From Clostridiaceae bacterium (lineage in GTDB: Bacteria; Bacillota; Clostridia; Lachnospirales; Lachnospiraceae), in the NCBI GenBank assembly GCA_021200535.1, contig JAJQGL010000074.1, forward strand, positions 1 through 34,052: a stretch of 34,052 nt of DNA, in the 5' to 3' direction. The position numbers were made by a program, and so were the translations under genes. Under the pieces are notes generated by a model. It worked only from the letters and a program-made list of their open reading frames with translations. It ran no database searches and was not told where the DNA came from. Positions 3,614-33,500 of the stretch are shown in pieces (positions within the stretch are counted from its first letter, which is position 1; the number at the start of each line of letters is the position of its first letter).

Positions 3614-3883
3614 AAAATACGCGGTACCACCTTTGATTTTGATAGAATACTATCAACTTTCCCGCCGATAACGAGGCGAACCGCCAACTCCTAATAATCT
3701 CTGTTCAGAGCAGGTTCTCAGAAGCTACCTTCCGAAACAGATGCACTAAAGCAGCCTTTCAGCCGATGCGCCGCTCTCTCTTTTAGGAACTGTTCCGTAC
3801 TCCTCTTCGTCATAGAATCATAACTTTGCTTAGAAACTGTTAAGAATTATCTTTGCATGTGACGCAGGATAATTCTTTAACAG
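3588..3883 (-). promoter_or_regulatory. T-box riboswitch leader of valS
   Basis: The minus strand contains the conserved T-box AAGGTGGTACCGCG (rightmost base 3633, leftmost 3620), which forms the antiterminator and pairs with the tRNA acceptor end. Farther upstream are the Stem I signatures GAAGAGGAGTA, AGAGAG and GGCTGAAAGGCTG. A GTA codon at 3728-3726, in the context GAAGGTAGCTTCTGAGA, is the likely specifier and codes for valine, matching the downstream gene. An imperfect 17-base-pair hairpin (3835-3851 with 3868-3885) precedes Stem I and sits at the predicted 5' end of the RNA. Uncharged tRNA-Val should allow readthrough. The specifier assignment is by eye. Confidence 0.92.
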
Positions 3884-9537: not shown

Positions 9538-9945
9538 TCAGGAACCCCCCCTCTCTTTATCTCGTTTCATATCTTCTATTGCAGTCTTTACCGTAGCAAT
9601 CCGTAATTCTACCTCTTCTTGAAAATTGTATACCTCACATTCTAATTCTTGATTAATAATTTCTTCATTCAAATCTTTGTACTCATTTTCATCAAAATTT
9701 TCTTTTTCGCACAAATCATCCATTTCTTTTTGCAAATCATTCAATTCTTCCATTTCCTCTGAAGACCTCTCCTTTTGGATGTCATTTACAGAGAATGTAT
9801 CATTCATCATAGTAACTGCTAAAACTGGTTCTCCACTTGAAAGGATTGGTTTTACATCTTCTGCTGCCATAACTGTAGCTTCTGACATCAACAATGCTGT
9901 TCCCAACATAAATCCCATCATTTGTTTTCTTGTTTTTTTGAACAT
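9538..9945 (-). CDS. Secreted Glu-rich helical protein, frame interrupted at a G7 tract
   Basis: The start ATG 9945 follows AAGGAGG. Residues 1-28 form a signal peptide (MFKKTRKQMMGFMLGTALLM, then Ala-rich MAAEDV). The mature part is highly charged and probably a helical hairpin (SSEEMEELNDLQKEMDDLCE and similar). The present frame ends at residue 135 only because of seven consecutive G (9545-9551). With six G the protein would run on to about 189 residues, ending at 9375. Whether this is a phase-variable tract, slippage during expression, a recent mutation or a sequencing error cannot be told here. The gene lies 80 bases downstream of the sigma/anti-sigma operon and could be its target. An inverted repeat ATTCGTT/AACGAAT (9964-9988) sits just upstream. 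The family is not recognised. Confidence 0.75.
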   Translation of the reverse strand: MFKKTRKQMMGFMLGTALLMSEATVMAAEDVKPILSSGEPVLAVTMMNDTFSVNDIQKERSSEEMEELNDLQKEMDDLCEKENFDENEYKDLNEEIINQELECEVYNFQEEVELRIATVKTAIEDMKRDKERGGS

Positions 9946-10025
9946 AAAAAAATCCTCCTTTGAATTCGTTCTAACTATTATAACGAATCAAAAAAGGATT
10001 TCCTGACAATTATTTTTATTTTTTT

Positions 10026-10724
10026 CTACTTCAAATAAATATCCTCCATCATTTTTGTTAATACTTCCTTGGCCTCTGTTATATTGGTAGCAATAATCTG
10101 ATAACCATACTCTAAGTCATCCCATATCATCCAAGCCTCCTGTCCTTTGACACAATATTCACACGAATAACCAGAGACAGTGATTTTCTCCTTGTAATCA
10201 TATTCTGCATCCGTAGCTATAGACAGCCCTTCTGACAGCTTAACACGATCATACTGTAAATACTCTTCACCATACTTCCATTCCACATATAAATCATTTG
10301 TATCTTCCAAACGAACATTTTCCTTGAAATTCTTCGGAATTGTTTCCGGTACATTCTTCTTCGCTTTTAGGCATTCTTCCTGTTTTGAAGTTGTCTTTTC
10401 CGTGTATGTTTTTTCATCCATTCTATTTTCAGCCAAAAATGATACCACATACTTCCATATATCAAAGTCAAACACTTTTGCACTTACCTGATTGGCGGTA
10501 AAAAGGCTTGTAACAATAAGCACTATAATTGCAATCTTTCGTACTACATATCCTAAATGAATTTTATTACCAAAATATTTTTCACTCCAAAACATACGTC
10601 TTATCTTCTTGCGAAATTTCTTCGAAAACTTATGTTCATAATCTGGCATTTCGCTTTCCTCAAGCAAATTCATTTCAGCCGTAATATATCCATGTAAATA
10701 CTCTACTATTTGTTGCTCTGTCAT
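10026..10724 (-). CDS. Anti-sigma factor-like membrane protein (DUF4367 type)
   Basis: This 232-aa protein has an N-terminal cytoplasmic region of about 65 residues, one transmembrane helix (about 66-80, AIIVLIVTSLFTANQ) and an extracytoplasmic domain that ends with a DUF4367-like pattern (ITVSGYSCEYC, IWDDLEYGYQIIATNIT). The N-terminal part should bind the sigma factor encoded directly upstream. The two genes overlap by four bases (ATGA at 10721-10724), with GGAG inside the end of the sigma gene, so they are translationally coupled. The proposed role is to hold the ECF factor at the membrane until an envelope signal arrives. The family assignment is moderate; the sigma/anti-sigma pairing is strong from gene order. 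Confidence 0.8.
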   Translation of the reverse strand: MTEQQIVEYLHGYITAEMNLLEESEMPDYEHKFSKKFRKKIRRMFWSEKYFGNKIHLGYVVRKIAIIVLIVTSLFTANQVSAKVFDFDIWKYVVSFLAENRMDEKTYTEKTTSKQEECLKAKKNVPETIPKNFKENVRLEDTNDLYVEWKYGEEYLQYDRVKLSEGLSIATDAEYDYKEKITVSGYSCEYCVKGQEAWMIWDDLEYGYQIIATNITEAKEVLTKMMEDIYLK

Positions 10725-11248
10725 TTTCCCATCTCCTCTCCAAGCATTTTCCGCCCTCTGGACAGTCGTTTTATAACCGCATCCTCTTTTATATCGAATA
10801 ACTTCGCAATCTCCCTACCAGTCAATCCGTGGATATAATGTAATATCAAAACTTCAGCATATTTCTTTGGAATATTTCTCATCACGTGATATAACTCAAT
10901 ATTTTCAAATTCTTTTTCCCGTGTAGCAAAAAAAGGAGAGTCCTCACACTCCGTTAATGCTGCCATTATCTTTCCTCTTCTACTTTTTTTTCGATACAAA
11001 TCGATTGCTGTCCTTTCAGTTATAATAACGAGGAAACTCTTCGTTTCCTGACAATCTATTTCATTAATTTTATCTAAATGAACAATAATCTTTTCCCACG
11101 CTTCCATCAACGCATCCTCTGCATCTTCACTATGTTTTAATACGTTAAACGCAACCATATACATAAATCTGTTATATTTTTCATATAATTTTTCAATTTT
11201 ACGTTTTTCTTCCGGTGAATCTGCCATTGCAATTACCATACAAAGCAT
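10721..11248 (-). CDS. ECF-type RNA polymerase sigma factor
   Basis: The 175-aa protein has a sigma-70 region 2 (YMVAFNVLKHSEDAEDALME) and region 4 with its helix-turn-helix (IPKKYAEVLILHYIHGLTGR, then EIAKLFDIKEDAVIKRLSRG). There is no region 1 or 3, as expected for ECF factors. The start is placed at ATG 11248 (MLCMVIAM) because GGAGG lies nine bases upstream. An ATG at 11263 would put that ribosome binding site inside the gene. The next gene overlaps by four bases and encodes its probable membrane anti-sigma factor. Targets are unknown; nearby secreted proteins are candidates. Confidence 0.92.
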   Translation of the reverse strand: MLCMVIAMADSPEEKRKIEKLYEKYNRFMYMVAFNVLKHSEDAEDALMEAWEKIIVHLDKINEIDCQETKSFLVIITERTAIDLYRKKSRRGKIMAALTECEDSPFFATREKEFENIELYHVMRNIPKKYAEVLILHYIHGLTGREIAKLFDIKEDAVIKRLSRGRKMLGEEMGK

Positions 11249-11504: not shown

Positions 11505-12068
11505 TCAGTCCTCATCTGCTCTCTTCGCTAAAAAATACCGAGGTCCAGAAATTACAATATGATTTTTATCTTTAATCCAAAATCTTGTGCCAAAACCCGC
11601 TTTTTTACTTTTAATCTCTACTATTGGCACTGTCTTGTCATCTTCAAACTGAAAGCCTTTATATAACGCATAACGTTCCATAAAAAAATCATTTGCGCTT
11701 TGCCATTGCATTACAAATTTAGGATTTTTAATAACATAATCATATTCATCATTTGGCAGATCGCACATAATAGAATCATCGCAAATTTCTATTGTACCGC
11801 CAATATAATCCGTCTCCGGTCCTAAGTCACTATAAATGTAGGCATATCCTGTAACAGCAGTAACTACCCATTTACCAAAAGCCATTGAAAAGATACTGCT
11901 GCAACAATCAGATTGTGTCGGTGATGCTATAGGACATGCCGTCACCTCCGGTAATGGCGTCTCAATGGTTGTCTCCTGTTCGTACTCGGATTTCTTTTCT
12001 TCTGCCTGATTATCATCCAATACATTTATGGCACAAATCAATAAAAATATAATAATAACCTTGTTCAT
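11505..12068 (-). CDS. Membrane-anchored hypothetical protein, paralogue B
   Basis: The 187-aa protein starts with a hydrophobic signal-anchor (MNKVIIIFLLICAINVL). A Thr/Pro/Ala-rich linker follows, then CCSSIF, then a globular domain opening GKWVVTAVTGYAYIYSDLG and ending FLAKRADED. The domain pattern (GKW near the start, IGGTIEIC, NPKFVMQW, FWIKDKNHIVI) suggests a small beta-barrel such as a lipocalin-like fold. This is an inference, and no family is assigned. AGGAGG lies ten bases upstream of the ATG. It follows paralogue A by 25 bases, probably in one transcript. Compared with A it lacks a ten-residue piece of the linker. Confidence 0.82.
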   Translation of the reverse strand: MNKVIIIFLLICAINVLDDNQAEEKKSEYEQETTIETPLPEVTACPIASPTQSDCCSSIFSMAFGKWVVTAVTGYAYIYSDLGPETDYIGGTIEICDDSIMCDLPNDEYDYVIKNPKFVMQWQSANDFFMERYALYKGFQFEDDKTVPIVEIKSKKAGFGTRFWIKDKNHIVISGPRYFLAKRADED

Positions 12069-12093
12069 CCATATTTCCTCCTACCTCAATAGC

Positions 12094-12702
12094 TCAGTCC
12101 TCATCTGCTCTCTTTGCCAAAAAATACTGAGGTCCGTCAATTACAATATGATTTTTATCTTTAATCCAAAATCTTGTGCCAAAACCACCTTCCTTGCTTT
12201 TAATCTCCACTAGAGGCACTTTCTCGTCATCTTCAAACTGAAAGCCTTTATATGGCGCATAGCGTTCCATAAAAAAATCATTTGCGCTTTGCCATTGCAT
12301 TACAAATTTAGGATTTTTAATAACATAGTCATATTCATCATTTGGCAAATCGCACATAATAAAATTATCGCAAACTTCTATTGTACCACCAATATAATCT
12401 GTCTCTGGTTCTAAGTCACTAAAAATATAGCCATACCCAGTAACAGAAGTGACTACCCATTTACCAAAAGCCCTTGAAAAGATACTGCTGCAACAACCAG
12501 ATTGTGTCGGTGATGCAGTAGAACTCACTGTTATTTCCGTTGATGCCACAGGACATGCCGTTGCTTCCGGTAGTGGCGTTTCAATGCTTGTCCCCTGTTT
12601 GTGCCCAGATTCCTTTTGTTCTGCCTGATTATCATCCAGTTTATGTATGACACAAATCATCAATAAAAGTATAATAATAACTGCGATAATAACTTTTTTC
12701 AC
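12094..12702 (-). CDS. Membrane-anchored hypothetical protein, paralogue A
   Basis: The 202-aa protein starts with a GTG codon at 12702, with AGGGGGA upstream. It has an N-terminal hydrophobic anchor (VIIAVIIILLLMICVI), a linker rich in Ser, Thr and Pro, the pair CC in SGCCSSIF, and the same globular domain as its neighbour (GKWVVTSVTGYGYIF, IGGTIEVC, NPKFVMQW, FLAKRADED). It is the upstream member of the tandem duplication. It is likely extracytoplasmic and anchored by its N-terminus. Location beside an ECF sigma/anti-sigma pair hints at an envelope role, but the function is unknown. Confidence 0.82.
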   Translation of the reverse strand: MKKVIIAVIIILLLMICVIHKLDDNQAEQKESGHKQGTSIETPLPEATACPVASTEITVSSTASPTQSGCCSSIFSRAFGKWVVTSVTGYGYIFSDLEPETDYIGGTIEVCDNFIMCDLPNDEYDYVIKNPKFVMQWQSANDFFMERYAPYKGFQFEDDEKVPLVEIKSKEGGFGTRFWIKDKNHIVIDGPQYFLAKRADED

Positions 12703-15283: not shown

Positions 15284-16567
15284 TCACCCCTCCGGTTCCG
15301 CGCCTTCCTGACCGCCTTTGGTCCACGCCTCCACAACATCCAGAATTTCCTTCCGGTTATCCGGATTTTCTTTGATCAGGGTATCAACCTCCTCAAGAAT
15401 ACCTTTTTTCACGCCTTCATTATATTCAATCTGTTCCCGCAGTTGCTGCCTTTGTCCGTTAAGCTTATGACGGATTTCCACCATTTCCCGGTCATCCACA
15501 AGCGCGAGCACCTGCCCCATCCAGATTTCACAATCCTTTAAGTCTTTTTCCTTCAGGAAACCGAGCAGCTCTTCATTGTAAGCATTTAGCTGTTCCGTAT
15601 TTTCACGAAATTTCCTCTCATACTCCTTCGCTTTACAATATTCTGTCCAGAGGCGTTCAAAATGCGCCCCATCCTGAACACCAAACTTTTGTCTGTTATA
15701 ATCCAGTACATTTAGATTGTTGACGCATTTAATCTTAACCCGATTCAACAGGCTGACCGCCTTGTCCATCTTCCTCTCTGCCAGAGCCATATCCCTGCGG
15801 TTACGGTTGGACTCCACAAAAATTGCTGTCGAAGAAACCGCCGCCAGAAGTACCGTTCCAAGATACGGATATGTCATGTCAGTCTGCAGCGCATAGTAGA
15901 CCACAGCAAAAAGAATGAACAAAGAAAAAATCAGCACGATCAGCACCTTCGCCATTCTTTTTAATGAGTTTTGTTTTTCAACAATCTCCTGTTTCTCCTT
16001 GCGCAGCTTTTTCTTTTCCTGTTCAAGCTTTTCCATATCGCCGTCTATTGCCTTCTGATAGGCCTCTGCCTCATACATTTTTTTAATCTCTGTAACCAGA
16101 TCTGTCTCATACAGCTCCAATCTGCGAATTTCCAGATCAGAGATCGAAAGATGCCTGTTTTTATATTGGTTTCTTTCTTTTGTAAGACGGGCAATATTCC
16201 TTGCAATATCCCGCAGATGTCTTTTTTCCTCTCCGGCAACACGGTCAATTTTCTGAATGTCCATCAAATAATCCGTCACAGACTGATATTCACGGCGCAC
16301 CTCGGCAATCTGCCGGTCAACGTCCTGAATTGCCTCGCAGCACTCTGCAGCGTAACGCTTTTGATCTTTTTTCTGCGTTGGCATTCTATTTTCACGTTTA
16401 TACTGCATCTCCGATTTTGCTGCCGGCTGCTTTGCCTGTACTTTTTTTTCTGTTGTGCCTTCTTTCTTTTTTTCACGGAGCGCATCCAGTTTTTCTCTTG
16501 CCTCACGCTCCAATGCTTCATCCTGCTCTCTCTGTAATTTCTTTTTTTTGCGATTCCAAAAAGCCAT
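15284..16567 (-). CDS. Coiled-coil protein with two central membrane helices, 427 aa
   Basis: The start is ATG 16567 (MAFWNRKKKKLQREQ), with GGAG eight bases upstream. The longer reading from 16636 would overlap the preceding gene. The N-terminal 200 residues are extremely charged and predicted coiled coil. Two close membrane helices follow, about 206-227 and 233-253, forming a hairpin. A second coiled-coil half follows, with a WxxYCKAKEYERKF segment and an acidic tail. Both ends should be cytoplasmic. It is the last gene of the DUF5717-DUF5716-TPR operon, 28 bases after the TPR gene. The architecture suggests a membrane anchor or scaffold for that complex. I know of no characterised homologue. 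Confidence 0.88.
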   Translation of the reverse strand: MAFWNRKKKKLQREQDEALEREAREKLDALREKKKEGTTEKKVQAKQPAAKSEMQYKRENRMPTQKKDQKRYAAECCEAIQDVDRQIAEVRREYQSVTDYLMDIQKIDRVAGEEKRHLRDIARNIARLTKERNQYKNRHLSISDLEIRRLELYETDLVTEIKKMYEAEAYQKAIDGDMEKLEQEKKKLRKEKQEIVEKQNSLKRMAKVLIVLIFSLFILFAVVYYALQTDMTYPYLGTVLLAAVSSTAIFVESNRNRRDMALAERKMDKAVSLLNRVKIKCVNNLNVLDYNRQKFGVQDGAHFERLWTEYCKAKEYERKFRENTEQLNAYNEELLGFLKEKDLKDCEIWMGQVLALVDDREMVEIRHKLNGQRQQLREQIEYNEGVKKGILEEVDTLIKENPDNRKEILDVVEAWTKGGQEGAEPEG

Positions 16568-16595
16568 GTTAATCTCCATTCCAGGTGTTTTACTA

Positions 16596-17435
16596 TCACA
16601 CACTAATCTGCCTTCGGTATTCGTCCTTCCACCCAAAAATATAGTGATTTACTTTATCATAATATTCCTCTACCGCACCCGTTTCAAGCAGCCCCTTCAG
16701 CTTATCAATCTGGACTGCTTTTTTACTGTGCGAAGCTTTGTCAACCGCCTCCTGATACTGTTTTTCCCAACGGCTCTGCTGCTCTTGTGTAATCTCCAGC
16801 TCATTGATAAGCTTCTTAAACGTCTCCACATCCTTTCCAAGGCGCAGTGCGAACAGACATTGGGAAACAGACTCCTGTCTGTTATTCTTTTCATATGCTT
16901 TCAAAAATAATTCGGAAGCCTTTTGATATTCTCCAATATGGGTATAGGCGACCCCCATATTATGAAAAATATCTCCATATACCGCCGGATCCGCCTGGAG
17001 AATTTCATCACTTTCAAAAACCTTTTCGTATTCCTCAACCGCCTTTTCATAGGATGCGCATTGAAGGTAATTATCTCCTTTTTTCTTTCTTCTTGCATAT
17101 CCGGGCAGCTTTGCCGTCTCATCCATAATCCGGATTAGCCCATTAATTTCTTCTTCCTCATAGTAATCGCAGCTACAGCAGATCGTGACAACAATATCTT
17201 TCAAATTATGGTGATCATTCAGCAGGCGTTCCAGCTTTGCTGCCGTTGTCTCCATATGAAGCTCATTGCGGAGCCAGTTTACAAATTCTCTGTCAAACAC
17301 TTCCTCCTGCATCATATAAATATTGTGGCGGATATAATAACACACCTCTTCAATACTGTAAACATTTGTCTTAGTAAGGCGAAACAGATACGGTTCTTTT
17401 GCTATTTCGCTGCTGCATCGAATCAATTTTCCCAT
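16596..17435 (-). CDS. TPR-repeat protein of the DUF5716/DUF5717 operon, 279 aa
   Basis: The start is ATG 17435 (MGKLIRCSSEIAKEP). GGGAGG lies six bases upstream, whereas the ATG at 17441 touches that site and is rejected. Residues 1-125 form an unknown helical domain (PYLFRLTKTNVYSIEEVCYY, VFDREFVNWLRNEL, then an acidic YYEEEEI). Residues about 130-200 contain two TPR units (GDNYLQCASYEKAVEEYEKV, then FHNMGVAYTHIGEYQKASEL). A charged C-terminus completes it. There is no signal or membrane segment, so it is cytoplasmic. It sits between the DUF5716 protein and the membrane coiled-coil protein, with gaps of 35 and 28 bases. A TPR adaptor beside an Hsp70-like protein fits a co-chaperone or assembly role; this is inference. 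Confidence 0.88.
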   Translation of the reverse strand: MGKLIRCSSEIAKEPYLFRLTKTNVYSIEEVCYYIRHNIYMMQEEVFDREFVNWLRNELHMETTAAKLERLLNDHHNLKDIVVTICCSCDYYEEEEINGLIRIMDETAKLPGYARRKKKGDNYLQCASYEKAVEEYEKVFESDEILQADPAVYGDIFHNMGVAYTHIGEYQKASELFLKAYEKNNRQESVSQCLFALRLGKDVETFKKLINELEITQEQQSRWEKQYQEAVDKASHSKKAVQIDKLKGLLETGAVEEYYDKVNHYIFGWKDEYRRQISV

Positions 17436-17470
17436 AGTCATCCTCCCTGCCGGAACACATTTTCCAACGT

Positions 17471-18736
17471 CTATGCTATGTCAATATAACGCTCCCATAC
17501 CCGGTTGCTGGAAGGGCAAAATTCCCCAAATCCATTGTCCTTTAGCGTAACAATACATGTTGTATTATCGGCAAAGCGAATCCGTATTGTAAAACGCGTC
17601 ATTTTGTTTCCCCTGCCGGAAAACCCACTGAGTGAGAGCATATGTGCTTTGGTTTCATGCTTTAGCACATCCTGAATAATCAACTGCAGTTCCTCTTCTT
17701 CATCTGGAATGACATCAATGCTGCAATCTACCTCGCTCCACATGCTTCCTGCCTTGGCAAGTAATACATCCTGCATATGTGCGTCCTGATAAACCCGCAG
17801 GGATACATTGCTGGAAATCATATCCTCGTCCAGAAAAAGACAGTGGTCCAGCTTCCCCTCGCCAGACAGCTCTCTGGCAGCATAGCATGCCCCTCTTGTA
17901 AACAGATTCTGTCCCCGGAAAACCCTTCTTCCGGCGCAAAGCTCTTTCAACGCATCATTTGCCCAGTTTTTCTCAAACTCTTTTCCTGTCACATAGACTG
18001 TCGTTACCAGCTGCTTGTGCAATACGGTATTTGCCGCATTGACAAATGCGTAAGCCTTTTGCTGGCTGCCCGAATCCTCCAACAGCTCCCAGTCAATTCC
18101 ATCCGAGAGACTTTTTTGCGATACCCCTACAATATAAGGAATCGTCTTTCGGTCGATATCAATCTGAGAATACGAAAACTCTTTTCCGTTCCACTCAAAC
18201 AGTCCGACATTATTCCCCCAAAGCTCTTTTGGCTGGCTCACTGCATAATACATATAACTCTGCCGGTGATTCTGAATCACAAAATTGTTTTGCGGAATCC
18301 CGATCTCCTGACAAGTCTGTGAGAGATACCGCACCAGCTTTTCATCCTTCTCTGCAACGGATATCACCAGCTTACGGATCATTTCATTGGGGTAATATTC
18401 TGTCAAAAGGCTGAGCACTTTGACCAGAAAGCGCTTTATAACCTGAAAGCTCTCCACCGAATATTTCCCAATCTCAATCATCTCTTCCTGAAGCACGTCT
18501 TTCAGAAGATGGTTCAGACAGACCATGCCTTCTTGTGCAGCCCTGTCATCATCAATCCAGTACCATTCCCCCCTTGCCGGATCCACTGCAAGCGCCGTGG
18601 GAATCTCATAGACACGTTCCCCCTGAATCATCCGTCCAACCGGAACCGGCTCATACGTTACAAAATCAAAACAATTCATCTGGGTAATCTCTTCACCCAG
18701 ATCAAGCCCCACCAGAAGTTTTCTTTCCTCTTCCAC
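17471..18736 (-). CDS. DUF5716 family protein, Hsp70/actin-like ATPase outline
   Basis: The start is placed at GTG 18736 because GGGAGG ends eight bases upstream. A TTG at 18778 overlapping the previous stop would add 14 residues but has no good site. The protein (421 aa) opens LLVGLDLGEE, like the first phosphate loop of the Hsp70/actin ATPase fold. Near residue 250 it reads VYVTGKEFEKNW, then RRVFRGQNLFTRGACYAA, matching in order the adenosine-binding GG...GAA region of Hsp70 proteins. The C-terminal 100 residues end FGEFCPSSNRVWERYIDI, the DUF5716 signature, and follow a beta-rich segment that could replace a substrate domain. No J-domain partner is nearby. It is the second gene of the operon. 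ATPase activity is inferred, not known. Confidence 0.88.
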   Translation of the reverse strand: MEEERKLLVGLDLGEEITQMNCFDFVTYEPVPVGRMIQGERVYEIPTALAVDPARGEWYWIDDDRAAQEGMVCLNHLLKDVLQEEMIEIGKYSVESFQVIKRFLVKVLSLLTEYYPNEMIRKLVISVAEKDEKLVRYLSQTCQEIGIPQNNFVIQNHRQSYMYYAVSQPKELWGNNVGLFEWNGKEFSYSQIDIDRKTIPYIVGVSQKSLSDGIDWELLEDSGSQQKAYAFVNAANTVLHKQLVTTVYVTGKEFEKNWANDALKELCAGRRVFRGQNLFTRGACYAARELSGEGKLDHCLFLDEDMISSNVSLRVYQDAHMQDVLLAKAGSMWSEVDCSIDVIPDEEEELQLIIQDVLKHETKAHMLSLSGFSGRGNKMTRFTIRIRFADNTTCIVTLKDNGFGEFCPSSNRVWERYIDIA

Positions 18737-18774
18737 GTCTTCTGCCTCCCTTAACAGCTGCCAAGCAGCAATAT

Positions 18775-21700
18775 TCAATCAATCTTCTCAAATAGCAGGT
18801 CCACGCTTTCCTGCAGCTGCACATATTCCTTCATCATATCCACCAGCGTCCCCTCTTCTTTCATTTCCTGCGCTATCATCATGAGATTTAACATATGGTA
18901 ACGGCTGCTGGTACGCTCATTATCCATGGTTTCATCAAATCCGACGCTCACACTCTTTGTAATCACTTCTCCCTCCGGACGGCTCTCGGAAATATAATAC
19001 TGCAGCGTCTCATCCTGAAAAAGCACAAATTCTTTCACACGGATACCGTAAAAAATATCCCGCATCGTCTCTGTGACATATTCGCCCTCTTCATAACCGG
19101 AAGAAATCAGATAGTGGATTTTCACTTCATACTCCGGATTCGCTGTATATTCTACATAATATTGATCTAAAATATGAATCGGCAGGGCAAACTTGCCATA
19201 AAAATCCCGGTAAAACGGAAATACAATTTTCTTTTCATACAGCTTATTGATATTATAATCTGCAAATCTGATTTCCTCCGGCGTCAGCTCCTTCTTCTGG
19301 CTAAGATATTTCAGGCTTGCAATCAGGCAGAAAAGATTATCCTGCACCTGCGCCTCCCTGTAAAAACAGCTATACATTTCATTTGGAATCAGCCAGCCAT
19401 GTACCAGACAATGATATGCAATAAATTTAATAAATCCGAGAATCAGCCGCTTATCCTTTCCTTTTTCATAATACGCAAAAAAGATGCCGTATGCGTCCGG
19501 GGACATCTCACCGGTAAATAAAATCTGTCCCAGAACCCGCTCCGCAAAATCTTCGGTGTCAATCTCAAAGCCTTTTGCATAGCGCCAAAGCTGCACCATT
19601 TCATTAATGCCGCCAGAAAAATATTTACACAGGTAACGCATCATATTTTCATCAAACTGTCCAGACTGAAAAATATGCCATGCCAGCTTAACCAGCCAGG
19701 CATCCTCTTCGTCCACACTCCTTGCAAATGTATCTGATGCAATCTTTAAAAGACGCTTTCCGTCAATCTTCTCATAGCCATACCTCCGGATGCCCTCCAT
19801 CGCCTTATCAAAAAATCTTCTGACGCAGCAATACTCAACAAATTCCTCCCTCTGCGACGGGCTGATTACAGACCAGTCTAAATTTTGGAGCGTACTGTCA
19901 AGCATTTCTCCTTCAAAATTATCATAGTAATAGCGAACCAGGGATGCAAAACTTTTTTTGTAATAATACGTACTCAAATCCGGAATTTCCAACACCTTGC
20001 GCCGGATATCCATCGCATTTTTCCCATTGCCGTTCATCCGCTCAATCCTGTCATACAGATGGAGCAGCAGCCTGTAATCACTGCCGTTTTTTTCCAGGCA
20101 GCATTCCGCCAGATGATCCAGATTTAAAAGCTTGTTATCCGTATAATCTATAGAAAGCACATACCGGTTATCCAAATGATCCGCCAAAAAAATCTGATAA
20201 TTTTCCGTAAAAATATTTACTACAGCCCTGCCCTTTTTTAATGGAACAAACTCTTCCCCCTGCAGCTCCCTGTGTGTGACATATACCCCTGCAATTTCAG
20301 GATTTTTACAGAGAATCTCATGGCAAAACATTACATTGGGAAGCTGTTTTGCCACATCGGCTGTCACTGCCTCTTCCACCAGAAACTCTTCATATAAGAC
20401 GGCAAGATTGCTGCTGATCCGTGCAGCAGCAAGCTGCCGCAGCGCAAACTCCTCCATGACAGGGCGGTACGATTCGTAGGTATCCCCCAAAACCTGTTTG
20501 TTTTGGATAACATAAGCATACAGCATTGCTTTTTTGGTAACGGTTAAATGGTTATCATACAAAAAATACAAAAGGGTATTATCTGACAGCTTAATCTCCT
20601 GCTCCTCGTCAATCGAATACATATAATATTCATATAAATCCGTCAGCTTCAGGTTATGCTCCACACCCAGACTATACCAGTAAAAGGCATCCTGATCTGT
20701 AATCTGCCCCTTCATCAGCATCTTACAGATTGACGCCAGAATTTCTTCCTCCCGGAACTGCTCATAGAAGCGGCACATATCTCTTTTCACTACTTTCGAA
20801 TACTCTCTGAGCCTTCCGGCAAGATAGCAGAATCGCAGCGCCACATCCTTTACAATATACTGCTGCTTGCAGCCCCAATGAACCGCCTCGCACAGTCCCG
20901 GCGTCAGTTCAGTTAAAAGCTCCGGCATATCGTTAAGGAGACTGCATATCTCCAGAAACAGCACTGGGCTGTGGCAGTTCCGGTCAAGCTGTGCCAGAAT
21001 ATCTTCATATTTTTTCCGGTCTGACTGCCGGTAAACCGGAGAAAGATACAACAAAAACCACAAAAGCTTCCAATTTGAAGTGTCCTTTTCATAACATTCC
21101 TTAATTTCTTTGATGCAGGCATTTACCACTTCGTCATTGTCTGCCCAAAGCCCTCTCAGATAAAAACATGCACAGTACAGCGACACATCTGCTTTTTTCA
21201 GTTTTTCCTCTTGTGTTTCCAGAAAAGCAAGCCCATTTCGGACCGTCTGCTCTCTGTGTTCCATAATTCCCAAATGGATTCGGAACAGCTGTGTGACAAG
21301 CGACATTCCGGTCTTTTCCATCGAGTATACAATATCACCCATTGCATGCAGGTACGCATCCCGGTCAATATGGGACATACAAAATTCCAGATACAAATGC
21401 AGCAGCTGATACAAATTTTTCTGATTGGCCAGCCCTTCCTGAACCGCCTCATGATTCTTGCTGATTTTGTTTACCTGCACTGTAATTTCAATCGTCTGAC
21501 GCACGCAGGAAACCGTAATCCGCGCATAATTTCTGCTGGCCTGCATTTTTTCAACGTCCACGAGAAACGGCAGCGAATATGTATTGCCGACAAAATCCTC
21601 CGACCAGATAATCTTTCTTTCTGGAACGACAAATTCACTGTCTGATTGAATATGGTATTCTCCATATCCCCAGTTGTCTTTTGTAATAACAAATTTATCC

Positions 21701-22329
21701 GTAAAGCTTTTCTCGCAATTCTCGTATTGAAAACTTGTCTGGCTGACAGACAGCTGAATCGGAATTTTTTTATGAATCGCAATCAGAAATTCTTCCATAG
21801 CGATCCCCCGGCTGGCACCTTTTGACAATCCGCGGTACAATTCAATGTTTACATTGTCGCGCTGTAAAAGCACTTCCTCAAAATGCGGGCTTCGAAACAG
21901 CGTAGCCGCTTCATCCGCATTTTCCTTCGCAACATTTGAAAAATGAAATAAATCACGGATTTTCCCCGTAGAAATTTCACAGAAAGGAACGCCTGCCACC
22001 GCCGTAAAGGAAACGATCTGTGTGCCGCAGTCTGTCACAATGCGAATAATCCCCTTCACTGAACCGCCCTGCAATAACGTTTCACCATGAAATACATATG
22101 GGATTTCACACGTTACACCCTGGAAAAATTCCTGGGGCAGTTCCAAAAAATGGCTGTCAGAGCTGACCTGGCCGCGCATTGGGCGTGCAAGCTCATTCGT
22201 CACGCATATCTTCCCCTCGGCCGTCTCCCCCGCATTCACTTCAATTTGAAGCTCCTGATCGGAAACCAGCAGTTTTGACCTGCTATATTCAAATATACCC
22301 TTTGCCGCCTGATTGATTCTTTCTCTCAT
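18775..22329 (-). CDS. DUF5717 family protein, giant solenoid scaffold, 1184 aa
   Basis: The start is ATG 22329 (MRERINQAAKGIFEYSRSKL). GAGG lies six bases upstream, and the longer 1228-residue reading would translate leader hairpins. Residues about 20-330 look like two or more immunoglobulin-like beta domains (LVSDQELQIEVNAGETAEGK, later EYHIQSDSEFVVPERKIIW). From about 340 to 1000 the protein is an uninterrupted alpha-helical array, probably a TPR-like solenoid (LYQLLHLYLEFCMSHIDRDA and many similar). A mixed C-terminus follows (FPFYRDFYGKFALPIHILDQ). No signal peptide or membrane segment is present, so it is cytoplasmic. It is the first and largest gene of the four-gene operon and has its own extended -10 promoter. 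I know DUF5717 only as a partner of DUF5716 in Lachnospiraceae, with unknown function. Confidence 0.9.
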   Translation of the reverse strand: MRERINQAAKGIFEYSRSKLLVSDQELQIEVNAGETAEGKICVTNELARPMRGQVSSDSHFLELPQEFFQGVTCEIPYVFHGETLLQGGSVKGIIRIVTDCGTQIVSFTAVAGVPFCEISTGKIRDLFHFSNVAKENADEAATLFRSPHFEEVLLQRDNVNIELYRGLSKGASRGIAMEEFLIAIHKKIPIQLSVSQTSFQYENCEKSFTDKFVITKDNWGYGEYHIQSDSEFVVPERKIIWSEDFVGNTYSLPFLVDVEKMQASRNYARITVSCVRQTIEITVQVNKISKNHEAVQEGLANQKNLYQLLHLYLEFCMSHIDRDAYLHAMGDIVYSMEKTGMSLVTQLFRIHLGIMEHREQTVRNGLAFLETQEEKLKKADVSLYCACFYLRGLWADNDEVVNACIKEIKECYEKDTSNWKLLWFLLYLSPVYRQSDRKKYEDILAQLDRNCHSPVLFLEICSLLNDMPELLTELTPGLCEAVHWGCKQQYIVKDVALRFCYLAGRLREYSKVVKRDMCRFYEQFREEEILASICKMLMKGQITDQDAFYWYSLGVEHNLKLTDLYEYYMYSIDEEQEIKLSDNTLLYFLYDNHLTVTKKAMLYAYVIQNKQVLGDTYESYRPVMEEFALRQLAAARISSNLAVLYEEFLVEEAVTADVAKQLPNVMFCHEILCKNPEIAGVYVTHRELQGEEFVPLKKGRAVVNIFTENYQIFLADHLDNRYVLSIDYTDNKLLNLDHLAECCLEKNGSDYRLLLHLYDRIERMNGNGKNAMDIRRKVLEIPDLSTYYYKKSFASLVRYYYDNFEGEMLDSTLQNLDWSVISPSQREEFVEYCCVRRFFDKAMEGIRRYGYEKIDGKRLLKIASDTFARSVDEEDAWLVKLAWHIFQSGQFDENMMRYLCKYFSGGINEMVQLWRYAKGFEIDTEDFAERVLGQILFTGEMSPDAYGIFFAYYEKGKDKRLILGFIKFIAYHCLVHGWLIPNEMYSCFYREAQVQDNLFCLIASLKYLSQKKELTPEEIRFADYNINKLYEKKIVFPFYRDFYGKFALPIHILDQYYVEYTANPEYEVKIHYLISSGYEEGEYVTETMRDIFYGIRVKEFVLFQDETLQYYISESRPEGEVITKSVSVGFDETMDNERTSSRYHMLNLMMIAQEMKEEGTLVDMMKEYVQLQESVDLLFEKID

Positions 22330-22567: not shown

Positions 22568-22645
22568 GCTTACCGCGAAACAAGGCTGATTCAGCTTGCT
22601 GCGAAACAGGGTAGTTTCAGCTTGCCGCGAAGCAGGGCAGGCGCG
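22568..22645 (+). repeat. 26-bp tandem repeat in the PLP gene leader (3 units)
   Basis: Units at 22568-22593, 22594-22619 and 22620-22645 share the core GCTTGCCGCGAAACAGGG, and a decayed fourth may follow. They lie within the predicted 5' untranslated region of the aminotransferase-like gene. A related AAAGCAGGGTAACTTTCAA lies at 22485-22503 between the two promoters. Confidence 0.7.
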
Positions 22646-26534: not shown

Positions 26535-29500
26535 TCATCGATTCTTTTTCTTAACAACAGCTGACCAATTTCCATAAACGGTCTCTCCACTCTTCTTTCG
26601 ATATGCGCACACTTTGATATAATACGTTTTCCCTGACTTCAGCTTTTTCAGCGTTTTCTTTGCAACAGACACAGAAACGATTTTCACGCCATTTACCTTC
26701 CCCGCCTTTCCATTTTTCAGCTTATTAAGTTTCGATTTTTTTGTACTATATGCAATTTTATATTTTACATTATTTTGTTTTTTCCATGTTACCGTCCATT
26801 TCTTTTTACTATTTATTTTGACCTTAACCCCTGTTACTTTCTTCGGTTTGGAAACTTCCGTTTTAGTGTACGAATCAGAAGATGGGTCTGCTGTCTGTGT
26901 TGGCTGTACTGTAGCCTGAGGTTCCTCGCTGGCAGAAATAGAATCTGTATTATCCGACTGCTCCGTTGAACCGGGCGACTCCATTGGCTGTTCACTTTCT
27001 GTCGGCTCCGTACTTGCTTCTGCATCTGAAACAGATACACTCGGGTATTGTTTCGATATCTCCATTGCATCCGTCTGTTCACTTACCGGTAAAATTGTAT
27101 ACACATACGAACAAGTTTTATCAGTAACCAGATACTGCTCTAATGCACTTGGCCCACAGGATTCGTTACCAACGCCACGTACTTTTGCATCAATACTCAG
27201 ATATGTTTTCTCTGACGGCAACAGATCATAAGTATGTCCTGCTTCATTTAGTTGCTGTGCAGTAAAATGAAGTGCAGATGCATTTAACTCCTGATCTCCC
27301 GTAACCAAAACACCGTATCCCGTGTCAGGATTTGTCACACTAATCCATTTCACCCCTGTAAGGTTTCCGCAATCCTGTGGGTTTGCAAACGGATAATACA
27401 TATCACTGACAGTTGAAGTGTACTCACCCACTCTTGTATAACTGTTACGGTCACTATAGCTTTCACAATCTCCGTTTCCATACCATGTAATATTTTCACT
27501 CCCCTCAGGAAGTACAATGACAGTACCTTGTTTTAAATATTGACTACGATTTACATTTGTCAAGTCTATATTGACATTCACATTGACCGCACCATTTTTC
27601 TGTACAGTATATATCATCGTTGCATAGGCATCACCTTTTTTATATGCAGCCTTTAAACTGACAGAAATAACCTGTCGCCCATCAGAATCTGTCGATACCA
27701 CCGGCTCCCCCTCCGGCATAAACAATTCCTGAATTCCCGTAAAAATCAGCGACTTATCATTATCTAGTTTTGCTCTGTCTAAATTCGGCACAGGCCCTTC
27801 CAGTAATACCGTTTCTCCCTGATAGACATAATTCTGCATTCTCCCTGTTGATGTATTAACCTCAAAAGAAAAATCATCACCGGATATCAGATAATTATCC
27901 CCCTGTTGTTCTACTGTAACACCGGTTCCATCTGTATCTTTTTCAACGATCTCTACATCTGCTGATACCTCAAACTGCTCCCATGCAATCTCGCTTCCTT
28001 TGTCTGCATACAAGCTATCTTCCTTTGTCTGCACAGAAATATTCAGATAATACTCTGCACCCTCCTTCAAAGTTTTGGGCATTTCAAATGGAACTGCCAC
28101 TTCACTCTCCTGTCCTGCAGAAAGCGCAATGTCTAGTGTGCCGTTGGAAATAATCTCATCATCTTCTTTCAACTCCCAAACCACATTATACTCTGACAAA
28201 TTCTTAGAAACGCTCTCATTTTTAATGGTTATGACATTGCTGGTTATAATTTCCTCAGATGCAGTAAACCAGAAATCCTGATACTGGTATTTTACCTCTT
28301 TTAACTCAGGCTGCGGATCACGATCTGCCGATACTAGCCCATTCTGACAGAAATTTCCATCATTTTTTGTATCACCCCAGTCTCCACCGTAACCCAGATA
28401 ATAACCAGCAAGATCATTTAACCCACTGGCATGTGCATTTTCCGTCGCATAATAATCCCACTGGTCTGAGTCCCCATCCAGTGCAATCTTTCTGGACTGA
28501 TCTACCCAATCCCAGATAAAACCGCCCAACATATTGTCACTGGAGCGCACAATATCCCAGTACTCTTTCATGCTTCCGACTGCATTTCCCATCGCATGGT
28601 TATACTCACACATCAGATACGGCATATGATTCGACAATTCCGATGCCGACTGTACACTAGAAAATGACGGATACATATGGCTTACCATATCCACACCGCC
28701 TGTCGCCGTATTATTAGAGCAATATCCCTCAAAATGAACAGGGCGCGTAGAATCCTGATCTTTAAAATACCAGATCATTTTTGCAAACATAGCATCTGCC
28801 AAACTGGTATCTGACTGATCACGCACAGACTCATTTCCGATTGACCACATAATATTTGCCGTCGTATTTTTAAACCGTTCATAAGAAGTCACCTGACGAT
28901 CCATCGCCGCGCTCTCCAAAAGAGATAAATCACTCTTGTTCTGCAATGCATGAGATTCATTATTTGTCTCACACATCAGATAAAGACCATACTTATCACA
29001 CAGATAATATAAATAGTCATCATTTGCATAATGAGATGTCCTAATCGCATTAATGTTATTTTTCTTCATTAACTTCACATCTGTCTCATACACCTCATGT
29101 GATACATATTTTCCCGTTTCAGGATCCGTATCATGCCGATTTACTCCTTTGATAATCAAACGTTTCCCATTGATTTTTACTGTATCATAATCCGTTGTAA
29201 TATGCACGTAATCTGTCCTGTCCTCTACCTCAGTACTAGTAAAAGACAGCTCTCGAAATCCAACATTTTGCGACACATTTTCATATTCCTCACCTGTTTC
29301 TGTATCGTAAAGTGATAATATCATAGTATACAGATTTGGATGATCTGCATCCCAAAGTTTAGGGTTTTCCACATCAAGCTGCATTTCTGTCTCAACATTC
29401 GCAGCAGACATTGTATCCTGCAATATAAAATTCTGACTCTGAAACAACTCATCTGTATCCGTATCGTATAACTCTACTTTAAGCCCCAGATTCTCTGCAT

Positions 29501-30437
29501 CAAGATTACCATCATTCTGCACAGCCACTTTGAGCTTTAATGCTGCACTGCTGTAATCATCTGATAAATCTGTTTCGACAGAATAATCTTGTACATGTAC
29601 CAGCGATGTACTTGTCAGGTAAACGTCACGGAAAATCCCTCCATCATAAATCATATCCTGATCCTCCAACCAAGTTGCATCTGAAAATTTGTACACTTTT
29701 ACGGCAAGTATGTTTTCCTCGCCCTGATCATTGAGCAAATCCGTAATATCAAACGTGTGTGGGCTGTAGCTATCCTCACTGTAACCTACCTGCTGCCCAT
29801 TGAGCCAAACATAATATGCGGATTCCACCCCGCCAAACGTCAAATAAACCTTTCCATCCTCCTGAAGCATAGAATCCTTTACGACGAACGATTTTCGGTA
29901 AAGCCCCACCGGATTCTGATCCTCTGGCGCTTCAGGTACTGATACAGATGTCTGAAACGGCATTTTCGAATTGGTATAAATAGAATAATCAAATCCATAA
30001 CTGGTCCAACTTGCAGGAAGCTCTACTTCCTTCCAACCATTATCCGTATTTAGCTCATAACTGCTCTGCCAAAATTCTCCAAGCTCTTCCGCCTGTTCCG
30101 GATTCTCCGTTACTATCAAATCCCAGGGTTCCTCTTCCCCTGTTAAAAGCTGATAATATGCAGAACCCTCCCTGTTATAATCTTTTGCACCAGAATAAGC
30201 AGTTGCATGATCTGCATATGGAATTGGATTACAACTGTCCGGCAAAGTATTAACTGTTGTAATATCAATATTTCCATCTTTACCGGTCCACTCGTTCCCA
30301 GTAAATTCGGTTCTCTGTACAGCATTTGCCTCTGCCGTCAGTGACTCCTCCGCTTTTACCTCCGCTGGTGCCAACAGTCCGCATGCCAAACTGCATGCCA
30401 CCATATTGGCAATTACTTTTTTTACTCTTTTTTTCAT
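26535..30437 (-). CDS. Secreted GH2 beta-galactosidase with C-terminal FN3-like domain
   Basis: The start is ATG 30437, with AAGGAG eight bases upstream; an extra 11 residues from 30470 are unlikely. The 1300-aa protein has a signal peptide (MKKRVKKVIANMVACSLACG, cut near VKAEE). It then has the LacZ order: sugar-binding jelly roll (GGVESAYYVWLNGQQVGYSE), immunoglobulin-like domain, TIM barrel with acid/base E536 in IGNESV and nucleophile E611 in CEYNHAMGN, and a domain-5 beta-sandwich near 850-1120. The two Glu are 75 residues apart, as in E. coli LacZ (76). A Ser/Thr/Pro-rich stretch leads to a basic FN3-like domain (KVTGVKVKINSKKKWTVTWK) likely for wall contact. It lies 86 bases after the GH59 gene, same strand. 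It should remove terminal beta-galactose outside the cell; lacZ-like but not intracellular. Confidence 0.95.
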   Translation of the reverse strand: MKKRVKKVIANMVACSLACGLLAPAEVKAEESLTAEANAVQRTEFTGNEWTGKDGNIDITTVNTLPDSCNPIPYADHATAYSGAKDYNREGSAYYQLLTGEEEPWDLIVTENPEQAEELGEFWQSSYELNTDNGWKEVELPASWTSYGFDYSIYTNSKMPFQTSVSVPEAPEDQNPVGLYRKSFVVKDSMLQEDGKVYLTFGGVESAYYVWLNGQQVGYSEDSYSPHTFDITDLLNDQGEENILAVKVYKFSDATWLEDQDMIYDGGIFRDVYLTSTSLVHVQDYSVETDLSDDYSSAALKLKVAVQNDGNLDAENLGLKVELYDTDTDELFQSQNFILQDTMSAANVETEMQLDVENPKLWDADHPNLYTMILSLYDTETGEEYENVSQNVGFRELSFTSTEVEDRTDYVHITTDYDTVKINGKRLIIKGVNRHDTDPETGKYVSHEVYETDVKLMKKNNINAIRTSHYANDDYLYYLCDKYGLYLMCETNNESHALQNKSDLSLLESAAMDRQVTSYERFKNTTANIMWSIGNESVRDQSDTSLADAMFAKMIWYFKDQDSTRPVHFEGYCSNNTATGGVDMVSHMYPSFSSVQSASELSNHMPYLMCEYNHAMGNAVGSMKEYWDIVRSSDNMLGGFIWDWVDQSRKIALDGDSDQWDYYATENAHASGLNDLAGYYLGYGGDWGDTKNDGNFCQNGLVSADRDPQPELKEVKYQYQDFWFTASEEIITSNVITIKNESVSKNLSEYNVVWELKEDDEIISNGTLDIALSAGQESEVAVPFEMPKTLKEGAEYYLNISVQTKEDSLYADKGSEIAWEQFEVSADVEIVEKDTDGTGVTVEQQGDNYLISGDDFSFEVNTSTGRMQNYVYQGETVLLEGPVPNLDRAKLDNDKSLIFTGIQELFMPEGEPVVSTDSDGRQVISVSLKAAYKKGDAYATMIYTVQKNGAVNVNVNIDLTNVNRSQYLKQGTVIVLPEGSENITWYGNGDCESYSDRNSYTRVGEYTSTVSDMYYPFANPQDCGNLTGVKWISVTNPDTGYGVLVTGDQELNASALHFTAQQLNEAGHTYDLLPSEKTYLSIDAKVRGVGNESCGPSALEQYLVTDKTCSYVYTILPVSEQTDAMEISKQYPSVSVSDAEASTEPTESEQPMESPGSTEQSDNTDSISASEEPQATVQPTQTADPSSDSYTKTEVSKPKKVTGVKVKINSKKKWTVTWKKQNNVKYKIAYSTKKSKLNKLKNGKAGKVNGVKIVSVSVAKKTLKKLKSGKTYYIKVCAYRKKSGETVYGNWSAVVKKKNR

Positions 30438-30469
30438 AGAAATCTCCTTCCTAAACCGTTTAATCTGCA

Positions 30470-30511
30470 AAAAGCAAACAGAAATTTCATCTCTACCTGC
30501 AATTTGCTTTT
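30470..30511 (-). promoter_or_regulatory. Long-loop hairpin between the GH59 and GH2 genes
   Basis: AAAAGCAAA (30470-30478) can pair with TTTGCTTTT (30503-30511). A second palindrome, TAAACCGTTTA (30452-30462), lies just before the GH2 ribosome binding site and resembles a LacI-type operator core. Either could tune expression of the downstream gene. The evidence is weak. Confidence 0.3.
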
Positions 30512-30523
30512 ACCTTTTCTGTT

Positions 30524-33500
30524 CTAACATCTTGCGCCCGCTTTGCGAAACAGCTTCCGATATGCCGCCTTCTTTTTCATCGGAGTACTCAGTTTAAGCT
30601 TTGACGCAGTCAATGAAAAAGCTTTTTTCCCTACTGTTTTTATAACATTTCCGCTGCACTTGACTGTTTTTAATTTCCGGCAGCCATAAAAAGCCTTTTT
30701 CCCTACTGTCGTAATGTTTTTTCCTATTTTCAGTGTATTTAATTTTTTGTTGTTCTTGACTGCTCCGGCAGAGATTGATGTAACCTTATATTTTTGTTTT
30801 TTAATTGACACTGTCTCTGGAATCGTCAAAGCTGTTTTCTTCTTCTGTGCTGCTGTAAGCTTCTTTACTGCTACTGTTGGATTAGTCCCTGTTTTTGTAA
30901 CCTTATATACAATTCCATTAACCGTAGCCGTACTTCCTTTTTTCAATGTGTTATCAGATGTATCAGCTGGCGACGGGCTTTCTGTTGATGGGCTTTCTGT
31001 CAGTTCTGTCGGCGTTTCTGTTGTATCCGGCATTTCTGTTGTATTCGGCATTTCTGTTGCCGTCGGCTCCTCTGTAACAGTTGGTACCAGCGTTGGTTTT
31101 GTCGTCCTTGCAGGTCTCTCTGCAACATTAGATGCTGCCTCTCCTTCTATTTCAACCGTATCAATCACATATGTATCAGACTGCACCGTCAACTCCACCG
31201 TATATGTCCCATAAGTAAGACCTGAAATCAATGTATTAACTTGACGATTTGATGCAATCAGCCGTTTTGCATTATCATAAGTTTCTCCATTGACAGAAAT
31301 CTGCAAATCCGGCATTTCTGACGCTTCTCCTGTGAAGTATATTCCTGTTCCTTCAAAAGTCACAGATACACTGGCACCTGACGCTGTATTGCACGACATG
31401 GTTCTGTCATACAGCGTATAGCTATTGCCAGAGGTGCGCTCCCATTCATCTGAAAATGACAGGACTGAAGATAAATCATCATATCTGGTAATATATGGAT
31501 TAGCACCGTTGATTCTCTCAACATATAAGTCATCAAAGCAATTTCTGTATTTTGCACTTCCCAAGCAAACTCGCCCTGCCAGAGAAATATTTTTTTCTGC
31601 CTCTGCAAATACCAACTCCTCTCCATTGACCGATGCCGAAACAGTTGTTCCATTTACAGCCACAGTCAAGGTGTTCCACTCTTTTAACTCCTCCAGTGTT
31701 CCCGAAGCATATGTCTTTTCAGCACTTTCAAAACTCCACTTTCCATTCTGATAAAGCTTCAATGTATAACCAGTATCAGCGCTGGTACAACTATATCTTG
31801 CAGTCAGTGTCACATAATTGTCATCTGTGCCCCTCTCATCAAAACAAGTATCAATCGAAACTTGATAGTTTGCCCATGTATCATCTCCCAAAGATGTAGA
31901 TGGATCTGCACCGGCTCCTCCGCTCCAACCTACCGTTTCATTTCCATCATAAATCTGCTGCATCAATGCATGATTGCCATTATTCTGCTCTACTACTTCA
32001 AACGCACCGTTCAAATCTGTTGTGTAACGCGGCGTTCCTCCACGGCTTTCCAAATAATCCTCAGAATAATCTGCATATTCAAAATCATCCGTATACTCCA
32101 AAGCTAATGGCTGATCCAAAGATGTATCGTTTGCAGATGTCATCTCTGCAATCTCCTGATACTCTTTCTGCCCATCTGTTGTTGTCAATGTAACGATCGT
32201 ATAAGGTGCCACTTCAACTGTGTAAGTATATATACCGTCACTCCCCTGTGTCGGCGTGATTGTATCAATCTTTCGCAGCCAATTTTCATCATAATTACTA
32301 GTGCTTCCGCTCGCTTTTGTCTCCCAGACCGCAACCTCTTTTGACGCAGAATCAAGATTTGTCACGCTAATATTATATGTACGGGTATATGCACTGTCAT
32401 TTGTAATTACACTGGAATAATCCTCTGTTTCCGGATCCATTGCAGTCATTTCGTTTCTTGTTGTATTTAAAATCGGACGATCTTTTTCTCCATCTCCATA
32501 ACATGCACTGTCAATATACTTCCATCCCTTTTTTATAAAATGAGTAAAATGCATTGTCATCGGCACAGAAGCATCCACTGTATAGTAACCGCTCCACGGA
32601 TGGTTTGCGCTCATCAACTGTTTCGGATAATACACCGACCCGGAAAAATAAGCTGCCACAGAAGGCTGGTATTCCATCATCGTCATGCTACTATAGTAAT
32701 ACCCATTAATAAAACGGTTAGCAATATCCAAAATACCATTGCCACCAGTTGCCGGGGAATCCAGATTAGTAGCATTGTCTGCATTTTGGCTCACTGTAGT
32801 AGATGGGCTATCCTCGCTATTCCAGATTTCTTTCTGATATGTTTCATTTAATTCTTTCAGCCAATTTGACGGATTACTGTATCCCTCTTTTCCATTATCA
32901 TAATTAGTATGATAATGAGTTCCAACCACATCCACCGCCTCACGAAATTCCTTTGCCAACTGATATTTTACTTGTTCTTTTACAGATGGATTTTCTTCAT
33001 CCTGATTAATAATGTCATAAAGAAGACATTTTGCCACGGCACAATTTGATACCTCGTCAGCAACCACAATTTTGATACTGCTATAGTCATATCTTTCATC
33101 CTCTTCACTCTTTAATGCATTGGACAGATAAATTGTCCATTTCATCGCATTATCTTTTGTATTATTAATCTCTCCATCATCAGAAATGCTTGGAAAGGAC
33201 ACTGATTTTTCATTCTGACACGCCCCTACATAATCAATTTTCATACCATATACGTCATATACCGCATCAATTGTTTCTTTAAACCATTTATATCGTGCAG
33301 CATATATCTCTTCGTCTGTTTCCTTTTCATTGGTAATCCACCCCGGTTCACCCCAACGAAGAATATCAACCGTAATGTCCGGATTAATTGACTTTGCATC
33401 TGCAGCAAAATGAAATCCGGCTCCTCGACTAACATTAGCAGGTTCATCTTCCGTCCGTTTTGTGCTAGGTTCCGCACCGGATGAAGTGTCTTGGTCACAG

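Follow-up and report, generated by a model that had tools for sequence, protein, structure and literature searches.

The window analysed in this study, a stretch of 34,052 nucleotides (contig JAJQGL010000074.1 of assembly GCA_021200535.1), is contig C26 in a draft genome of 2.9 Mb from a member of the Lachnospiraceae, which is the family referred to in all counts below. Within 15284..22329, the table of open reading frames (ORFs) and a reading of the sequence define four ORFs, all on the minus strand, which encode members of the families DUF5717 and DUF5716, a tetratricopeptide repeat (TPR) protein and a coiled-coil-like protein with a transmembrane (TM) hairpin. The DUF5717 gene probably starts with ATG at 22329 (product of 1184 aa), the DUF5716 gene with GTG at 18736 (GGGAGG ahead, 421 aa), the TPR gene with ATG at 17435 (AGGGAGG ahead, 279 aa) and the coil gene with ATG at 16567 (GGAG ahead, 427 aa). 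Their separation by 38, 35 and 28 bases confirms the gaps of 28–38 bases described in an original prediction made from this sequence, whose helical-repeat, TPR and two-TM proteins were likewise recovered as a helical-repeat family match, a TPR_2 match and a TM hairpin. In comparison with the nearest relative (L099), three of the genes show NG86 ratios of nonsynonymous to synonymous substitution (dN/dS) of 0.048–0.064 at a dS >2 that is near saturation, and the ratio was not computable for the coil gene. The features of the operon, for which the term outgroup denotes homologous genes from the order's other families, are as follows:

18775..22329, minus strand: DUF5717 protein, 1184 aa, corresponding to beta-domain and alpha-solenoid proteins fused in one chain (Pfam, outgroup profiles)
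21427..22329, minus strand: beta part of DUF5717, about residues 1–301, homologous to the free-standing protein BETA (profile, E 6e-39; boundaries approximate)
18778..21396, minus strand: solenoid part of DUF5717, from about residue 312 onwards, a homologue of the free-standing protein SOLENOID (profile, E 3e-80; boundaries approximate)
17471..18736, minus strand: DUF5716, putative degenerate Hsp70 (pseudo-Hsp70), 421 aa (Pfam, alignment, predicted model)
17846..18736, minus strand: predicted nucleotide-binding domain (NBD) fold of DUF5716, about residues 1–297, without subdomain IIB (alignment, model)
18683..18709, minus strand: degenerate phosphate-1 (P1) loop, GLDLGEEIT compared with GIDLGTTNS of the DnaK of the same genome (alignment)
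17882..17941, minus strand: most conserved 20-residue block of DUF5716 (LCAGRRVFRGQNLFTRGACY), aligning with the final portion of the Hsp70 NBD (alignment)
17474..17845, minus strand: predicted domain resembling the beta-sandwich of the Hsp70 substrate-binding domain (SBD-beta), about residues 298–421, without helical lid (model)
16596..17435, minus strand: TPR protein, 279 aa (Pfam TPR_2, 3e-6; outgroup TPR profile, E 8e-34)
15284..16567, minus strand: charged, coiled-coil-like protein with TM hairpin (COIL), 427 aa (hydropathy; outgroup COIL profile, E 9e-49)
15815..15955, minus strand: TM hairpin of the coil protein, residues 205–251 (hydropathy)

The relationship of DUF5716 to Hsp70 is reflected in its predicted structure. 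The window protein matches DUF5716_C (PF18980) at 4e-101 and 338 bits, compared to a curated cut-off of 34.7, and its predicted model contains an actin-like NBD fold, supporting the Hsp70/actin-type fold originally proposed. The model was compared a second time with VIA-align. Its C-terminal domain is all-beta and alignments with DnaK extend to chain residue 503–504, pointing to an SBD-beta sandwich, while no helix of four or more residues is found after residue 293 and the helical lid (SBD-alpha) is consequently absent from the model. Matching structures include 4gni, 6sr6 and 5mb9, the matches to Ssz1 of yeast. In a profile search, DUF5716 retrieved two DnaK sequences only, at E 0.005–0.01. 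Alignment and model together indicate that DUF5716 has kept the NBD and SBD-beta fold of an Hsp70 with a destroyed ATP site.

For the description of this site, we have scored 14 residues, namely the two threonines of the P1 loop (T11 and T12), K70, E171, the D-GGG-T motif of the phosphate-2 (P2) loop, D201, K270, S274 and the two adenosine-site glycines, in 76 DUF5716 sequences of 391–469 aa and the window protein, leaving aside three of the 79 sequences found (two fused, one cut). The window protein does contain the GLDLG start and, further on, the VTG...GAC motif noted previously, but the ATP-binding residues of Hsp70 at these places are mostly gone, with 2 of 14 retained overall, and each of the 77 sequences retains between one and four. 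All 77 lack K70, E171, D201, K270, S274 and the second of the adenosine-site glycines; T11 is lost in 76 and T12 in 71, and subdomain IIB appears as a gap at its three ruler residues in all 77. Positions that are kept include the P1 aspartate (73/77), the first adenosine-site glycine (77/77) and the P2 aspartate (33/77). By comparison, all 14 residues are found in 21/21 sequences each of Hsp70-A and Hsp70-C and in 18/19 of Hsp70-D, three outgroup proteins described below (fragments below 450 aa were excluded from the groups A–D, except for one D fragment of 494 aa that was retained). The loss of six positions in all 77 sequences is the destruction of the ATP site that had been named beforehand as speaking against an Hsp70-like ATPase, and the assignment of DUF5716 as an ATPase is not supported.

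Among the neighbours of DUF5716, the DUF5717 protein matches DUF5717_N at 5e-287 and the C-terminal DUF5717 family at 5e-90 (PF18984 and PF18983 with 955 and 302 bits at a curated cut-off of 25). The N-terminus of DUF5717 and of BETA looks beta-rich, with an fn3 Pfam match being absent. Among solved structures, none matches the DUF5717 profile at E values of up to 1, and a single match to the BETA profile was obtained at E 0.79. In the coil protein, hydropathy places the TM segments at residues 205–223 and 233–251, and no Pfam family scores above its cut-off. DUF5716 and the TPR protein form a single reading frame of 708–709 aa in two loci (L131 and L144), a natural fusion that is evidence, not proof, at the level of sequence that both work side by side.

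The original prediction overlooked that further families of the order possess a homologous operon, which by sequence encodes three Hsp70s with an intact ATP site and a GrpE-like protein. In an outgroup set of 27 loci from 26 genomes and 12 family codes, all from the same order, the genes BETA-SOLENOID-Hsp70A-GrpE-B-Hsp70C-Hsp70D-TPR follow each other in this order in 16 loci from nine family codes. The outgroup operon thus comprises eight or nine genes as judged from profiles, with a degenerate Hsp70, here termed B, placed among the intact ones and COIL present in some loci, and each of the window proteins finds its counterpart in this set at the E values listed above. Its composition is illustrated in locus L062, where Hsp70-A matches the HSP70 family of Pfam at 2e-77, the GrpE-like protein GrpE at 1e-14, Hsp70-C both HSP70 (3e-57) and DUF5716_C (1e-10), and Hsp70-D, which carries a C-terminal VWA domain, HSP70 at 2e-95. 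The B protein of the same locus matches DUF5716_C (2e-25) as well as HSP70 (PF00012, 1.9e-16). In these families, DUF5717 mostly corresponds to two distinct genes, although BETA and SOLENOID also form one ORF in L195, L201–L203 and L209. Three further family-level groups hold the larger operon only in part. Among the incomplete loci, L064, L065, L190 and L192 are cut short by a contig end or by the limit of the fetched stretch, L063, L067, L198, L199 and L208 contain part of a split set, and L066 is reduced. In L209, a diverged protein of 412 aa in the B slot (9783–11018), missed at first labelling, was found with the B-group profile (E 3e-16), and the TPR slot is weak. In a separate observation, the Hsp70-D and TPR genes of L061 (3208–4231 and 4343–6384; genome G027, which holds the outgroup B nearest to DUF5716) are each split over two frames, either by decay or by an assembly error.

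The absence of intact Hsp70s in the Lachnospiraceae was followed across whole genomes for Hsp70-C, whose profile scores up to 196 bits in 60 genomes of the family, which is the level of DnaK, compared to 778–972 bits for true members. Several DUF5716 genes appear as weak matches to this profile (E 7e-8 to 2e-4), and the best match in 80 family loci, with 55 bits, is itself a DUF5716. True members of full length score at least 892 (A), 870 (C) and 794 bits (D) with their own profiles. Contig C41 of the window's own genome carries a second chaperone-like cluster (L187, 782–17578), which encodes a PASTA Ser/Thr kinase, two Hsp70s, one of them with a VWA domain at its C-terminus, and a protein of 1055 aa. 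This Hsp70 pair was considered as the missing A, C or D and rejected, as it scores 115–206 bits with the A, C and D profiles, below the DnaK of this genome (202–313). In another lineage, the locus of genome G039 consists of BETA-SOLENOID-B only, and the Hsp70-C search of this genome gives a DnaK-type protein of 611 aa, B and one weak match; on sequence grounds this case alone stands as a separate reduction, in which the same parts have survived a second time. A stepwise loss via G292, whose locus (L208) lacks C, D and TPR, was discarded since its Hsp70-C is found on another contig with 778 bits, indicating that the operon is split rather than reduced. Hsp70-C is also located away from BETA-SOLENOID in G028, G247 and G355.

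Within the Lachnospiraceae, the four genes constitute a conserved, single-copy and co-inherited set containing a pseudo-Hsp70. DUF5716_C is found in 197/200 genomes (196/199 genera) with one match per genome; of the three others, G062 and G115 also lack DUF5717 and G121 has DUF5717 at a contig end. At class level, DUF5716_C is present in 10/243 genomes, all 10 from the family, and the BETA profile matches 10/238, nine from the family and one marginal (E 3e-4). At phylum level, DUF5717_N is present in 4/299 genomes, all 4 from the family, and at order level in 68/147, of which 19 belong to the family and 49 to others; the 20 listed among the 79 order-level genomes without it are all from other families. 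No match to the DUF5716 or DUF5717 families was obtained in 14 control genomes. In the best 80 of at least 588 relatives, which constitute the family loci, the ORF table gives the complete order DUF5717-DUF5716-TPR-COIL on one strand in 63 loci, and a recount that allows for gene fusions and for genes masked by overlapping ORFs finds DUF5717 and DUF5716 in 80/80, TPR in 78/80 (L121 and L141 being cut by contig ends) and COIL in 65/80 (cut off in L118, L121 and L141). A typical four-gene operon was also seen in a record titled Anaerolineaceae (L125, 10001–11260), probably a mislabelled or mixed draft genome.

The genomic site is partly common to the operons of family and outgroup. Directly upstream of the 80 family loci lies a divergent aminotransferase gene in 29, a same-strand one in 1 and a contig end in 9; in the outgroup, the aminotransferase adjoins the operon in 8/27 loci and is separated from it by one ORF in L197. 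On the downstream side, a same-strand valS-like gene follows in 21/80 family loci (directly in 11) and is present in 5/27 outgroup loci.

Collectively, we consider it probable that the window operon is a collapsed relative of the eight- or nine-gene operon and that DUF5716 acts as an ATP-free adaptor in an assembly with DUF5717, the TPR protein and the coil protein. The collapse itself is apparent from sequence comparison and model: A, C, D and the GrpE-like protein are absent from the locus, BETA and SOLENOID are one chain, and B, further degraded and without IIB, corresponds to DUF5716, which seems to be the remaining core of a larger chaperone assembly that is itself undescribed. We infer from the tree and from the presence of the larger gene set in nine family codes that this set is the older one and that the window form was reduced by loss. 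DUF5717 might constitute the main scaffold, on which DUF5716 would operate without ATP, its SBD-beta-like domain and rebuilt cleft holding a partner or client. The TPR protein could dock on DUF5716, and in loci that have the coil protein this might tether the assembly to the membrane. By analogy to yeast, where Ssz1 helps Ssb, clients may be passed on to the housekeeping DnaK.

Several observations weigh against this interpretation. The window DUF5716 has no PF00012 match up to E 1, and one true Hsp70 of the same genome (552 aa) matches DUF5716 at E 0.059 only, so the homology to Hsp70 rests on the bridge provided by B, on the group profiles and on the model. Outgroup B mostly retains D194, G196, K270 and the adenosine-site glycines and may thus still bind nucleotide. 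The holding of clients is suggested solely by the SBD-beta-like fold retained in the model. For Hsp70-A, Hsp70-D and the GrpE-like gene, the lack of a profile match holds for the ORFs of the 80 family loci, and the genome-wide search of the family covered Hsp70-C only. The tree is a quick one of 62 chosen rows with SH-aLRT as the sole support, long branches and an odd composition in many rows; alignments A3 and A4 held 73 and 65 rows. In keeping with the persistent gene order named as support in the original prediction, the four genes are lasting neighbours, although the coil gene is missing in 12/80 family loci despite sequence beyond, including Blautia, Oliverpabstia and Eisenbergiella-type records, and was recognised in 5/16 full-order and 6/27 of all outgroup loci, implying that membrane tethering is not universal. 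Finally, a gene other than the aminotransferase lies upstream in 41/80 family loci.

A bolder formulation, in which the family runs an ATP-free Hsp70 whose membrane-tethered complex, left from an assembly with four Hsp70s fed by GrpE, binds clients by SBD-beta, is one we advance tentatively, as possible rather than probable. If true, the ancestral assembly would have combined three live Hsp70s and a dead one on a common scaffold and would represent a machine that is itself undescribed.

As an alternative, the Hsp70 fold might have turned into a building block of a purely structural envelope or division scaffold that binds no clients. This is in line with the location of the most conserved block of DUF5716 in the NBD rather than the SBD part, with DUF5717 as the largest component and with the TM hairpin of the coil protein, but we regard it as doubtful in light of the SBD-beta-like domain retained in the model and of a counterpart operon that holds three Hsp70s and a GrpE-like protein. 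Unlikely is a co-chaperone resembling the yeast ribosome-associated complex (RAC), in which the pseudo-Hsp70 complex would recruit the housekeeping DnaK as replacement of the lost Hsp70-A, -C and -D. Like Ssz1 of this complex (PMC8476630, PMC7083937), DUF5716 would be a non-canonical Hsp70 kept as partner of other chaperones, and Ssz1 is among the structural matches. However, Ssz1 is eukaryotic and has a J-protein partner, whereas DUF5716 is encoded next to a solenoid, a TPR protein and a coil protein with TM segments, and Pfam finds no J-domain among the families listed for the four proteins of the window or for ten outgroup proteins that were scanned, a partner encoded elsewhere not having been sought.

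Highly improbable is a system of phage defence or conflict comparable to the Hsp70/GrpE systems with a central GTPase that were described by Kaur et al. 2020. According to that work (PMC7159879), one theme of the systems centred on the GTPase GAP1-N2 combines Hsp70 with GrpE, in a subset with a second Hsp70 lacking the peptide-binding domain, and includes an FNIII protein fused to DnaJ or TPR. Hsp70, GrpE, a second Hsp70 and TPR are thus common to both, and outgroup Hsp70-A, -C and -D partially match the candidate defence model PDC-M61B (PADLOC, 4e-5, 5.5e-9 and 3e-6), matches that would reflect the shared Hsp70 domain. Yet those systems are built around a GTPase and assigned to conflict, whereas the DUF5716 set is a single-copy family core (197/200 genomes) with a conserved neighbour gene in part of the loci. 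Pfam detects no GTPase in the window's four or the ten scanned outgroup proteins, and PADLOC gives no match for the window DUF5716, DUF5717 and coil proteins and for TPR only Cas1 at 0.005. We have rejected a defence system on these PADLOC results and the comparison with PMC7159879. Extremely improbable, finally, is an active Hsp70-like ATPase driving the complex, which despite the Hsp70 fold of the model and the few retained residues is contradicted by the losses in the ATP site across 77 sequences, by the gap at IIB and by the contrast with the 14 residues of A and C.

With respect to known families, the window proteins are full members of PF18980, PF18983 and PF18984, whose Pfam description lines give neither a function nor a link to Hsp70. 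DUF5716 differs from the Hsp70 family (PF00012; DnaK) in its one to four ATP-site residues, the missing IIB and lid and, for the window protein, the missing PF00012 match. In agreement with the original view of DUF5716 and DUF5717 as uncharacterised, no description of either was found in a literature search whose coverage excluded most subscription journals and bioRxiv preprints; DUF5716 is named in one paper, unrelated by its title, and DUF5717 in none. The same literature yielded no paper on a bacterial pseudo-ATPase Hsp70 or on a clostridial operon of Hsp70, GrpE and a von Willebrand domain, and for Hsp70 with a VWA domain, TPR and GrpE nothing but the GTPase-centred systems of PMC7159879. 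Recognition as a dead Hsp70, with counterparts beside three intact Hsp70s and a GrpE-like factor, makes a testable chaperone problem of an anonymous DUF that occurs once per genome in 197/200 genomes of a large gut-associated family. The dead Hsp70 offers a bacterial counterpart to the non-canonical Hsp70s of eukaryotes, with natural full and reduced genomes, and raises the question of the purpose of an Hsp70 that no longer uses ATP.

Other features of the window concern the surroundings of the operon. Between the aminotransferase gene and DUF5717, a 26-base unit is found in three adjoining copies that are 69–77% alike (22568–22645), and a promoter-like TTGAAA-18-TATACT is located at 22503–22474 on the minus strand, with 24 such sites in the region compared to 13.5 in shuffles. 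A T-box leader precedes valS (3604–3822, minus strand; Rfam RF00230, 100.9 bits) and is the sole Rfam match in the window over the gathering score. At 11505–12702 (minus strand), two adjoining, very similar proteins of 187 and 202 aa with a hydrophobic start, the latter without Pfam match, form a tandem duplicate, and at 26535–33841 (minus strand) a GH2 beta-galactosidase-type protein of 1311 aa is encoded next to a GH59 galactocerebrosidase-type protein that carries leucine-rich repeats of the BspA type.

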